Assembly: GCA_016866775.1 (NCBI GenBank)
Contig: VGLJ01000054.1
Coordinates: forward strand, 1-33,359
Origin: Candidatus Rokuibacteriota bacterium
GTDB taxonomy: Bacteria; Methylomirabilota; Methylomirabilia; Rokubacteriales; CSP1-6
Direction: 5' to 3'
Length of the DNA stretch: 33,359 bases
Both the position numbers and the translations under genes were made by a program. Of this stretch, positions 1,696 to 4,180 are shown piece by piece. The stretch's first letter is position 1, and each line of letters begins with the position of its first letter. Below the pieces are notes generated by a model. It was not told the DNA's origin. It ran no database searches and saw only the letters and a list, made by a program, of their open reading frames with translations.

Positions 1696-1725
1696 TTTCA
1701 CAGCCCCTCCCGACCGGTGTCAGAT
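1696..1725 (+). promoter_or_regulatory. Candidate ECF-type promoter of the sigma/anti-sigma unit (site A)
   Basis: TTTCACA at 1696-1702 and GGTGTCAGA at 1716-1724 are separated by 13 bases. The same TCACA and GGTGTCAGA blocks with the same 13-base gap occur again at 3290-3316, before the next gene group. The layout recalls ECF promoters such as TGTCACA-N16-CGTC, known for the ECF41 group. It lies about 60 bases before the sigma start. Autoregulation is an inference. Confidence 0.4.
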
Positions 1726-1781: not shown

Positions 1782-2309
1782 ATGGGCCGGGAGCCATTCG
1801 AGGCCGTGATGGCGGCGCATCATGCGGAGATCTATCGCTATCTGCGCCGGCTGACGTTCCGGTCGGCCGAGGCCGAGGACCTCTCGCAGGAGACGTTCCT
1901 GCGCGCCTTCCGCGCGTACCGGGCGCTGCCGCCCGACGCGAACGTGCGGGCGTGGCTGTTCGCGATCGCGACCAACCTCTTTCGCAACAGCCTGCGCGCG
2001 GCGAAGCGCCGGCGCGCGGCCTACGACGGCGCGAAGGGGAGGGGACGCGAGGATGACGGCGACGGGCCCGACGGCGTGGCGCGGTTCAACGAGGCGCGGG
2101 TCGCGGTCGAAGCGGTCATCGACGCGCTCCCCACGAAGCAGCGCGCGGCGTTCGTGATGCGCAAGGTGCACGAGCTGCCCTACGACGAGATCGCGAAGAG
2201 CCTCCACTGTTCCGTCGACGCCGCGCGCGCGCACGTGTTCCAGGCCTTCCGCAAGATCCGCCACTCGCTCGAGGATGCCCAGCTTCCGGCCGCGGAGGGA
2301 TCCGCATGA
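1782..2309 (+). CDS. ECF-type RNA polymerase sigma factor
   Basis: A 175-residue sigma-70 family protein of extracytoplasmic-function size. Region 2 spans about residues 8-75, including the -10 binding stretch AEDLSQETFLRAFRAY and RAWLFAIATN. A charged linker follows, then region 4 at about 112-165 (ALPTKQRAAFVMRK and the helix-turn-helix YDEIAKSLHCSVDAARAHVF). It would direct RNA polymerase to a small set of promoters. Its stop overlaps the next start (ATGA at 2306-2309), so it is translationally coupled to a protein whose N-terminus is an anti-sigma zinc finger. That is the usual sigma/anti-sigma pairing, but here the partner also carries alkylation-repair domains. The ATG at 1782 lacks a strong ribosome binding site; an AAGGGA lies too far upstream. 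The ECF group cannot be fixed by eye. Confidence 0.95.
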   Translation: MGREPFEAVMAAHHAEIYRYLRRLTFRSAEAEDLSQETFLRAFRAYRALPPDANVRAWLFAIATNLFRNSLRAAKRRRAAYDGAKGRGREDDGDGPDGVARFNEARVAVEAVIDALPTKQRAAFVMRKVHELPYDEIAKSLHCSVDAARAHVFQAFRKIRHSLEDAQLPAAEGSA

Positions 2310-3274
2310 GCCCGACCATGTCGTCCTGTCGCGCGATCCAGCCCGACCTCGTCGCCACGGCGACGGGCGACGCCGTGCCGGGCGCGGAGGCCCGCGTGCG
2401 CGCGCACGTCGCCGCCTGCGCGCCGTGCCGGCAGGAGCTCGAGCGGTATCGCTCGATCGACCGGATCGTCGGCGACATCCGGCGTGCGCCCGTCGGGGGC
2501 GATCACGCCGACATCGTGCGCGGCGACCTCGAGTGGCGGCTCGCGGAGCTCCGGCGCCGCGCCGTGACCGCGCGCGTGTGGAGCTCGCCGCTCGGCCCGA
2601 TCCTCATCGCGCGCTCCGAGCAGGGCGTCGTGCTCGTGGAGTATCTGGACTCGGCGCGCGGCCTCGAGGCCTCGCGCGCGCTGCGCCGTGCCGGCGTCGA
2701 AGTGCTGGAGGACGGCAACGAGACCGAAGCGTTCTACCAGCAGATCCTCGAATACCTCGCGGGCGAGCGGACGCGGCTGGCGTGGCCGCTCGACTACCGT
2801 CTCGCGGCCAGCGACTTCCACCGCGAAGTGCTGCAGGCGACGGCGACGCTCCCATACGGCGCGGTCGTCTCGTACGCGCGGCTCGCGCGAGAGATCGGCC
2901 GCCCGACGGCGACGCGCGCCGTCGCGCAGGCGCTGCGTCACAATCCGCTGCCGATCGTGGTGCCGTGTCATCGCGTGATCGGCGGCACGGGCGCGCTGAC
3001 CGGCTACGCCGGCGACAAGCTCGCGCTGAAGGAGCGGCTGCTCTCGCTCGAGGGCGTGCCGGTGGTGCGCGCGCGCCGCGATCGGCGCATCTCGCGGGAC
3101 GCGATGTACGTCGTCGCGGACCACGATCGCGAGTACTGCGTGCCCACGTGCGGCTCGCTCTCGACGCTGCCGCTGTGGCGCCTCACGCTGTTCGCGACAC
3201 GCGATCGCGCGGAGTCGGCGGGCCTGGCGCCCTGCACGAGCTGCCGCCCGGATCTGCACCCGCTCTCCGCGTAG
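2306..3274 (+). CDS. Triple fusion: anti-sigma zinc finger, O6-alkylguanine-DNA methyltransferase, Ada-type methyl-acceptor zinc domain
   Basis: A 322-residue soluble protein with three modules. Residues 1-50 form a zf-HC2/ZAS anti-sigma domain: Cys8, then the H-x3-C-x2-C signature at His34, Cys38 and Cys41. Residues about 88-252 form an alkylguanine-DNA alkyltransferase (Ogt/MGMT): an N-terminal RNase H-like part, the DNA-binding helix ATLPYGAVVSYARLA, and the active site PCHRV with acceptor Cys221. Residues about 265-316 match the zinc domain of Ada, which repairs methylphosphotriesters: Cys278-x3-Cys282 and Cys310-x2-Cys313, followed by RPD, with nearly the Ada spacing. The start overlaps the sigma factor stop. 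Known: ZAS domains bind ECF sigma factors, and Ada becomes a transcription activator when its zinc cysteine is methylated. Inferred: alkylation of Cys221 or Cys278 releases the sigma factor. The Ada AraC-type helix-turn-helix is absent. Confidence 0.93.
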   Translation: MSPTMSSCRAIQPDLVATATGDAVPGAEARVRAHVAACAPCRQELERYRSIDRIVGDIRRAPVGGDHADIVRGDLEWRLAELRRRAVTARVWSSPLGPILIARSEQGVVLVEYLDSARGLEASRALRRAGVEVLEDGNETEAFYQQILEYLAGERTRLAWPLDYRLAASDFHREVLQATATLPYGAVVSYARLAREIGRPTATRAVAQALRHNPLPIVVPCHRVIGGTGALTGYAGDKLALKERLLSLEGVPVVRARRDRRISRDAMYVVADHDREYCVPTCGSLSTLPLWRLTLFATRDRAESAGLAPCTSCRPDLHPLSA

Positions 3275-3287
3275 CCTCCGCTCTCCG

Positions 3288-3316
3288 CGTCACACCCGCC
3301 TTCCGGCGGTGTCAGA
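3288..3316 (+). promoter_or_regulatory. Candidate ECF-type promoter of the small-gene group (site B)
   Basis: CGTCACA at 3288-3294 and GGTGTCAGA at 3308-3316 repeat the two blocks of site A with the same 13-base gap. The site lies 66 bases before the ATG of the small membrane protein, close to the distance seen for site A. The segment can also fold weakly (ACACC/GGTGT), so a hairpin after the upstream gene or half of a REP-like repeat are alternatives. Confidence 0.38.
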
Positions 3317-3381: not shown

Positions 3382-3561
3382 ATGACGGTCTACGAAATAC
3401 GCCTCATCGCGGTGGTCGGACTGCTGGTCATCGGGGCGCTCGCGCTCGTCGCGGCGCTCGCCGTCGCGCATCTCCAGGGCATCGCGCGGCATCGCAAGGA
3501 CGGGGCCGTCCGCGGCGCGACCGCCCTGCCCGCGCCGGCCGATCGCCGGCGCGCGGCGTAG
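3382..3561 (+). CDS. Small single-pass membrane protein, unknown function
   Basis: A 59-residue protein that I do not recognise. It starts at an ATG preceded by a strong ribosome binding site, AGGAGG, at 3371-3376. Residues about 7-30 form one hydrophobic helix (LIAVVGLLVIGALALVAALA), followed by a short basic tail rich in Arg, Ala and Pro. With no signal for export, it is probably an inner-membrane anchor or peptide with its tail in the cytoplasm. It is the first gene after candidate ECF promoter site B and lies 10 bases before the next small gene, which has its own ribosome binding site. Position suggests it belongs to the regulon of the adjacent sigma factor, but nothing in the sequence gives a biochemical role. 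Confidence 0.7.
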   Translation: MTVYEIRLIAVVGLLVIGALALVAALAVAHLQGIARHRKDGAVRGATALPAPADRRRAA

Positions 3562-3571
3562 GGAGGCGGCC

Positions 3572-3898
3572 ATGCTGAGCGCTCTGGCCGCTCTCGCCGT
3601 CCTGCTGGCTCCAGTCGCCGGACTCGTCGCCCTGATGATGGCGCTCGAAGCGCGCCAGCGCGCGCGTGACGCCGCCGCCGCGCGCCAGATCCAGCTGACC
3701 GACGCCATCCACGCCGAGCTCGGCGCCGTCGTGGCGCCCGTGGTGGAGAAGCGCGCGTTTCAGCCCTGGCGCGTCGTGTTCGCGGTGTCCGAGCCGCGAA
3801 GGCGCGACGTCGGCCGGCTGCTCGAGATCACCGACCGCGTGCTCGGCAACCAGCTCCACGACGTGCAGATCGTGTTCAGGCGTCCGCTCGCGGCGTAA
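3572..3898 (+). CDS. Small membrane-anchored protein, unknown function
   Basis: A 108-residue protein starting at an ATG behind GGAGG at 3562-3566. Residues about 2-26 form a membrane helix (LSALAALAVLLAPVAGLVAL). A charged helical stretch follows (about 27-55, EARQRARDAAAARQIQLTDAI), then a compact C-terminal part with alternating strands (WRVVFAVSEPRRRDVGRLLEITDRVLG and DVQIVFRR). The form suggests a helix anchor with a small cytoplasmic or periplasmic domain. I recognise no family. It follows the previous small gene by 10 bases and probably shares its transcript downstream of candidate ECF promoter site B. Confidence 0.75.
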   Translation: MLSALAALAVLLAPVAGLVALMMALEARQRARDAAAARQIQLTDAIHAELGAVVAPVVEKRAFQPWRVVFAVSEPRRRDVGRLLEITDRVLGNQLHDVQIVFRRPLAA

Positions 3899-3913
3899 GG
3901 CGCAGAGGGGTTT

Positions 3914-3935
3914 GGGGTCCTTGGGTGCGGACCCC
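3914..3935 (+). other. Hairpin in a G-rich intergenic stretch
   Basis: GGGGTCC (3914-3920) and GGACCCC (3929-3935) form a perfect 7-bp stem with an 8-base loop, 15 bases after the preceding stop. The surrounding strand carries several G runs (3907-3910, 3914-3917, 3923-3925). No T run follows, so factor-independent termination is doubtful. It could separate the two small genes, slow degradation, or form another G-rich structure. Confidence 0.4.
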
Positions 3936-3955
3936 ATGTGCAAAGGAGGGTGACG

Positions 3956-4180
3956 ATGGACTTCAACGTGTATTACATGCAGGTGCAGGCGGATCAGCTG
4001 CTGCGGGAAGCGCGCGCGGCGGCGGCGCGACGAGCGCTGCTCGGCCCGCCGCCGCCGGTCGTCGGCCCCGCGGTGCGGCGCGCGATCGACTGGATGCGGT
4101 CGTTCTACGCGCGGTGGTCTTCCGCGGCGTCCACCGGCTCGAAGCCGATCACGGCCCGCGCGTGGTCGAGGTCGCGGTAG
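3956..4180 (+). CDS. Small hypothetical protein overlapping a convergent gene
   Basis: A 74-residue protein starting at an ATG with a good ribosome binding site (AAAGGAGGG at 3942-3950), which supports translation. An earlier in-frame ATG at 3938 is disfavoured because the binding site lies after it. The N-terminal half is helical with Tyr and Gln (MDFNVYYMQVQADQLLREARAA), then a PPPPVV linker and a short helix with Trp. The last 25 residues lie over the 3' end of the opposite-strand SDR gene (overlap 4105-4180) and look like antisense-constrained sequence. No family is recognised. It may be the last member of the small-gene group after the sigma factor, though a hairpin and G-rich stretch separate them. 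Confidence 0.5.
   Translation: MDFNVYYMQVQADQLLREARAAAARRALLGPPPPVVGPAVRRAIDWMRSFYARWSSAASTGSKPITARAWSRSR

Follow-up and report, generated by a model that had tools for sequence, protein, structure and literature searches.

A sigma factor gene coupled to a predicted anti-sigma, alkyltransferase and Ada-type zinc domain fusion in Rokubacteria

Described systems and the Rokubacterial gene pair

The known adaptive response to DNA alkylation is that of Ada, a repair protein that is turned into a transcription activator. In Escherichia coli Ada, a zinc methyl-acceptor domain and an O6-alkylguanine alkyltransferase are combined in one autoregulated protein, which activates transcription with an AraC-type helix-turn-helix. 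ChrR-RpoE and RsrA-SigR each consist of an anti-sigma factor with an N-terminal ZAS domain and an ECF sigma factor encoded by an overlapping gene in an autoregulated operon; the sensor is a cupin domain in ChrR and the ZAS zinc itself in RsrA. ECF122 of the Casas-Pastor classification (Cellulomonas sp. Root930) is described, in the part of a review that concerns this group, as an ECF gene beside a 6-O-methylguanine DNA methyltransferase gene, whose product is proposed to take part in regulation of the sigma factor, and as a possible unexplored mechanism; the same part reports the group without an anti-sigma factor (PMC8999054). In the literature on alkylation and ECF sigma factors, our search found only this remark on ECF122.

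Rokubacteria are bacteria of soil and groundwater, and the window analyzed here is the whole of a 33,359-nt stretch of Rokubacterial DNA. It contains an ECF sigma factor gene followed by a gene for a fusion protein, with domains placed as follows.

1782..2309, + strand: ECF sigma factor gene, 175 residues, regions 2 and 4 (Pfam and NCBIfam; adjacent to the fusion gene in 28 of 28 loci)
2306..3274, + strand: gene for the anti-sigma/alkyltransferase/Ada-zinc fusion protein, 322 residues (domain matches, conservation and predicted structure)
2306..2569, + strand: predicted ZAS anti-sigma domain, residues 1-88, four helices (invariant ligands; zf-HC2 in 18 of 25 members; PDB fold matches to RsiW and RslA)
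2579..3058, + strand: O6-alkylguanine-DNA alkyltransferase, residues 92-251, acceptor Cys221 in PCHR (Pfam; fold match to 1sfe)
3074..3253, + strand: Ada-type zinc domain, residues 257-316, C278-x3-C282-x27-C310-x2-C313 (Pfam above cut-off; matches to N-Ada chains)

The 3' end of the sigma gene and the 5' end of the fusion gene share the sequence ATGA, an overlap of 4 nt. Above their thresholds, Pfam and NCBIfam identify the sigma factor (Sigma70_r2, 1.8e-15; Sigma70_r4_2, 2e-15) and, in the fusion protein, the Ada zinc domain and both alkyltransferase domains (DNA_binding_1, 5.1e-29, residues 170-251; Methyltransf_1N, 6.3e-7, residues 92-164). The fusion protein has eight cysteines (8, 38, 41, 221, 278, 282, 310 and 313), three belonging to the ZAS motif, one to PCHR and four to the Ada domain, with none to spare. 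An earlier note, made from the window alone, had described this gene pair, and its coordinates, the 4-base overlap and every residue that it named proved correct on re-check.

Like ChrR and RsrA, the fusion protein has an N-terminal ZAS domain, an overlapping ECF partner gene and an operon predicted to be autoregulated, but its proposed sensor is a DNA alkyl acceptor and not a cupin or the ZAS zinc. Like Ada, it unites a zinc methyl-acceptor domain with an alkyltransferase in one protein of predicted autoregulation, but it has no helix-turn-helix, follows another domain order and includes an anti-sigma domain. Compared to ECF122 as reported in that part of the review, it shares the adjacent alkyltransferase and differs in having a ZAS domain.

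The search of genomes for this three-domain architecture beside ECF genes, proposed in the earlier note, located the fusion protein in 47 of 95 genomes of the phylum (Rokubacteria), distributed over families f1 (44 of 57), f4 and f9, with full-length homologues of 53-65% identity in the same family and beyond; named records among the matches are Candidatus Rokubacteria. Wherever upstream DNA was available, which is for 27 homologues and the window (28 of 28), the sigma gene lies directly 5' of the fusion gene; the two genes overlap by 4 nt in 25 of 27 complete pairs, a count that includes the window. Residues C8, H34, C38, C41, C310 and C313 are invariant in 28 of 28 homologues, and C221, C278 and C282 in 29 of 29. 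Judged from these sequences, the conservation of the fusion and of its pairing with the sigma gene is far beyond chance. Since the fusion is present in 47 genomes, a frameshift or assembly fusion as its origin was rejected. A horizontal plasmid element was likewise rejected, with no plasmid record covering 80% of the fusion protein. A scan of the GTDB genome collection with the single protein gave no matches and a profile scan of that collection gave matches, from which the spread outside the phylum is to be read as "at least".

Domains of the fusion protein

The zinc-ligand motif of the N-terminal domain is complete, reading C8-x25-H34-x3-C38-x2-C41 in 28 of 28 homologues and falling within the ZAS pattern (C/H)-x25-29-H-x3-C-x2-C. 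The finger had been recognized before from H34, C38 and C41, which are correct residues but an incomplete ligand set, as Cys8 was overlooked. The coupling of a ZAS gene to an ECF sigma gene was found at 28 of 28 loci, mostly through the ATGA overlap. The Pfam family zf-HC2 matches the fusion protein at 0.0012 (residues 8-42), below the Pfam cut-off, and matches 18 of 25 members across the family, at best with 7.6e-7. The AlphaFold2 model of the whole protein (mean pLDDT 84.6) shows, with good confidence, N-terminal helices at residues 5-19, 25-37, 39-60 and 65-85, followed by the alkyltransferase and the C-terminal zinc domain; the fold of ZAS anti-sigma factors is a bundle of three helices to which a fourth is added. 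For Foldseek, the N-terminal domain was modeled alone, since matches to the alkyltransferase prevailed when the full-length model was searched. Against the whole PDB set, this domain gave two matches only, RsiW with SigW (5wuq) and RslA with SigL (3hug), both of them zinc anti-sigma factors, at weak E-values of 4.5 and 8.4, and its weak sequence-profile matches include RsiW, DdvA and ChrR. Altogether, motif, predicted fold and context make this a good candidate for a ZAS anti-sigma domain, and its predicted action on the ECF sigma factor is, on this sequence evidence, likely. Homologues that lack the finger and keep the neighboring sigma gene, which the earlier note had named as counterevidence, do exist among distant homologues; none is found among orthologues, where 28 of 28 keep the finger.

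The best fold match of the whole model is the C-terminal domain of E. coli Ada (1sfe, Foldseek E-value 3.1e-12). Residues R204, N213, C221, H222, R223 and E249 of the alkyltransferase site, which we take to be the counterparts of human R128, N137, C145, H146, R147 and E172, are all invariant in homologues, and the PCHR acceptor, Arg finger, Asn hinge and Glu of MGMT/Ogt proteins are all present. By sequence, the fusion protein holds a complete O6-alkylguanine alkyltransferase with an intact site and predicted activity, and the PCHRV alkyltransferase with Cys221 read earlier from the sequence is borne out by Pfam and by invariance in 29 of 29 homologues. A catalytically dead, alkyltransferase-like protein was rejected because the acceptor cysteine is invariant.

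At the C terminus, Ada_Zn_binding matches residues 257-316 above the Pfam cut-off (2.1e-5), the sequence profile matches the N-Ada chains 1adn, 1u8b, 1zgw and 1wpk, and the pattern C-x3-C-x26/27-C-x2-C of the Ada zinc domain is present in C278, C282, C310 and C313, with Cys278 as the predicted methyl acceptor. Pfam and conservation thereby agree with the Ada-like Cys4 domain proposed in the earlier note. The helix-turn-helix is missing, as that note had also said: Pfam and NCBIfam find no helix-turn-helix family in the fusion protein, including the AraC type that in Ada lies between the zinc domain and the alkyltransferase, the domain order differs, and the Ada model scores 101 bits, short of its cut-off of 345. 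The suggestion that the sigma factor stands in for this helix-turn-helix is a fair functional analogy and goes no further than analogy.

Promoter motif and predicted regulon

Upstream of the sigma gene and downstream of the fusion gene, the window contains the following features.

1696..1724, + strand: predicted promoter of the sigma gene (autoregulation), TTTCAC-N13-CGGTGTCAGA (same motif with 13-nt spacing 5' of the sigma gene in relatives)
3288..3316, + strand: weaker second copy of the promoter motif, CGTCAC-N13-CGGTGTCAGA, before the downstream operon (13-nt spacing; canonical form there in relatives)
3382..3561, + strand: gene for a small membrane protein, first of the predicted target operon (open reading frame after an AGGAGG-like ribosome-binding site)
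3572..3898, + strand: gene for a small membrane protein, 108 residues, no Pfam family (relatives behind the motif at 24 further sites)
3956..4180, + strand: small conserved gene, product MDFNVY... (relatives in the same operon elsewhere; 3' end overlaps a gene on the opposite strand)

The regions upstream of sigma genes have in common TTTCAC-N13-YGGKGTY, then NNA, with a spacing of exactly 13 in 34 of 34 matches, and the motif usually recurs before the operon next to the sigma/fusion pair. Across the 57 genomes of the family it occurs at 149 sites, compared to none for the reversed control. A stricter form was found in 19 of 19 genomes with the system and in 0 of 11 without it in a sample of 30, one of the 19 (G037) having the system as a contig-end fragment only. 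Within the family, the motif is present in 44 of 44 genomes with the fusion protein and in 6 of 13 without; in several of these six, the contig ends within the locus, and G023 is a real exception. When the upstream regions were compared by eye, no invariant operator was seen beyond the two promoter blocks. In most relatives (e.g., L012 and L047), the sigma start codon follows the end of the motif by about 12 nt or less, which suggests, as a reading of sequence, that the sigma transcript is leaderless there; unlike most relatives, the window has a gap of 57 nt between the promoter motif and the sigma start codon.

Behind 129 distinct motif sites lie the sigma gene (31), the neighboring small-membrane-protein genes (about 30), genes of the DinB superfamily (25), DUF2652 (24), universal stress protein (5) and SRPBCC (2), and about 14 singletons. 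Apart from those at the sigma locus there are 66 sites, of which 25 precede DinB-superfamily genes and 24 DUF2652 genes, the enrichment being P of about 4e-40 for DinB with a counted background (23 DinB_2 genes in the genome) and about 7e-54 for DUF2652 with an assumed background rate of 5 per genome. In three genomes (G002, G028 and G067), the motif is followed by a DinB gene and then by a free-standing alkyltransferase gene. No AlkA or AlkB gene was found among the targets behind the motif. We know of no function of DUF2652 and of no earlier link to alkylation, and its predicted link to alkylation stress is new. DUF2652 proteins, which start ...VLADISGFTAFV, are encoded behind the motif at L068, L056, L061, L063 and about 20 other loci.

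The DinB proteins behind the motif keep three aligned histidines, in contrast to ClbS/DfsB, which are without the metal motif (PMC10693628), and DinB-superfamily genes of Mycobacterium smegmatis are induced by genotoxic agents, with mitomycin C among those tested (PMC10693628). The predicted targets, i.e., the sigma gene, DinB detoxification genes and free-standing alkyltransferases, are consistent with a response to alkylation or electrophiles, and both the architecture and the predicted regulon are solid as sequence results. In the window, the motif copy precedes three small conserved genes (3382-4180). Two of them probably encode membrane proteins, for which Pfam has no family. Two relatives carry a universal stress protein gene at this place instead.

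Proposed switch, alternatives and relatives without a ZAS domain

The best explanation of these data is a sigma switch triggered by damage, a model that we regard as fairly probable; within it, restraint of the sigma factor by the fusion protein is likely, and we infer alkylation as the trigger. In undamaged cells, the ZAS domain would keep the ECF sigma factor inactive, as domain, fold and context suggest. Judging from the conserved active sites, Cys221 would accept alkyl groups from O6-alkylguanine and Cys278 would probably accept methyl groups from backbone phosphotriesters, both transfers being irreversible. The alkylated fusion protein would then change shape or be degraded and leave the sigma factor free; the alkylated form of the human alkyltransferase is destabilized and degraded, which would provide a simple release step for the fusion protein. 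The freed sigma factor is predicted to transcribe from TTTCAC-N13-YGGKGTY promoters, which would include those of its own operon, the neighboring small-membrane-protein operon, DUF2652 genes and DinB-superfamily genes, some with a free-standing alkyltransferase next to them. Induction of its own operon would refill the spent anti-sigma pool, reset the switch and end the response. Whether the protein further works as an irreversible and stoichiometric damage counter, in which each lesion repaired would use one anti-sigma factor and free one sigma factor, we consider evenly balanced; the signal would be the self-inactivating chemistry of repair itself, with operon autoregulation as the reset, and, if this is true, a single principle would underlie the ECF-alkyltransferase pairs of at least three phyla, each pair being a variant of it.

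It is improbable that the ZAS domain is instead the sensor, losing zinc upon oxidation or electrophile attack and releasing the sigma factor as RsrA does, with the alkyltransferase and Ada domains as effector cargo produced in the course of that response. The fusion protein does have the full RsrA/ChrR-like ligand set C-x25-H-x3-C-x2-C, oxidation-sensing ZAS proteins are well known (PMC8999054), and among DinB-type proteins are thiol transferases that act on electrophiles (PMC10693628). However, fusion to two alkyl acceptors is not required under this reading, yet fusion and acceptors are invariant, and no thioredoxin, catalase or peroxidase gene was seen among the targets behind the motif.

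Other readings concern the pairs that have no ZAS domain. The same genome contains one such pair, here called type II (contig G000:C7, locus L004:6285-7492). As with the ZAS fusion, its ECF gene overlaps or adjoins the gene for an alkyltransferase that ends in an Ada zinc domain, but the ZAS domain is missing and the ECF sigma factor is a different one (27% identity). The ECF gene is adjacent in 16 of 16 aligned relatives of the same order or class, source genome included; further matches to the type II protein, in G009 (one) and in the Methylomirabilis-type family f5 (two), have no adjacent ECF gene. The type II promoter motif is TTCCACCC-N15-17-CGTATA, and a search with it shows mainly autoregulation. 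The type II pair also occurs in relatives without the ZAS version (G006, G019 and G036). ECF and alkyltransferase-Ada-zinc pairs without ZAS were further found in Rubrobacter radiotolerans (WP_051590067.1/WP_084264190.1) and Nonomuraea gerenzanensis, and in Chloroflexota and Actinomycetota contigs, ECF genes are paired with alkyltransferases that have neither a ZAS nor an Ada domain. Probable ECF122 relatives (Arthrobacter, Thermoleophilia) lack a ZAS domain and begin with a short N-terminal extension of non-zinc type, and ECF122-like proteins, unlike the fusion protein, are without the Ada zinc domain. Since ZAS-free pairs are found in other phyla and in the same genome, the ZAS fusion is best seen as the Rokubacterial variant of a broader pairing. 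The earlier claim that no system of this layout was described therefore needs dividing: the ECF-alkyltransferase pairing is widespread and already listed for ECF122 in a review (PMC8999054), and the fusion with a ZAS domain is new.

The ZAS-free ECF/alkyltransferase-Ada-zinc pairs in the same genome, Rubrobacter and Nonomuraea, and the precedent of methylated Ada with sigma-70, speak for an alkylated protein that is a positive partner, its methylated Ada-type domain being a DNA-binding activator that recruits the sigma factor; we consider this decidedly unlikely, as type I (ZAS-bearing) proteins keep a complete ZAS domain in 28 of 28 cases, the AraC-type helix-turn-helix is absent, and the comparison by eye gave no invariant operator beyond the promoter blocks. 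Because ZAS-free pairs are common, in several phyla, the main role of the alkyltransferase gene may be that of a target; that it is a mere target beside a sigma factor whose activity is set otherwise, by transcription or by another partner, with the ZAS domain a nonfunctional remnant, is very doubtful, since a dead ZAS domain would not keep C8, H34, C38 and C41 in 28 of 28 homologues at 53-65% identity, although ECF122 is filed without an anti-sigma factor in the relevant part of the review (PMC8999054). It is scarcely credible that a different regulator binds the motif as its operator or that a different sigma factor uses it as a promoter; G023 (a motif site, no system detected) speaks for this, but the two blocks keep an exact spacing and stand directly 5' of the sigma gene in relatives, and the motif co-occurs tightly with the system.

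Under the damage-triggered model, the fusion protein appears to be a sigma factor inhibitor destroyed by repair, a solution other than that of Ada and with no separate cascade, and in Rokubacteria alkylation damage itself probably turns on protective genes. The model places DinB-superfamily and DUF2652 genes in a predicted alkylation or electrophile stress regulon, and so self-contained a switch could serve as an alkylation biosensor. It would also explain the ECF/alkyltransferase neighborhood in several phyla, listed as unexplained in what the review says of ECF122 (PMC8999054).

On a plasmid of Streptomyces sp. NBC_01022 (L297, 994-3010), an ECF gene overlaps a partial alkyltransferase-Ada-zinc gene that is followed by a complete alkyltransferase gene, an arrangement that is a split version of the same module. 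On a plasmid of Arthrobacter sp. StoSoilB13 (L298, 1273-2983), genes for an alkyltransferase, an ECF sigma factor and a second alkyltransferase lie in a row with their ends overlapping.
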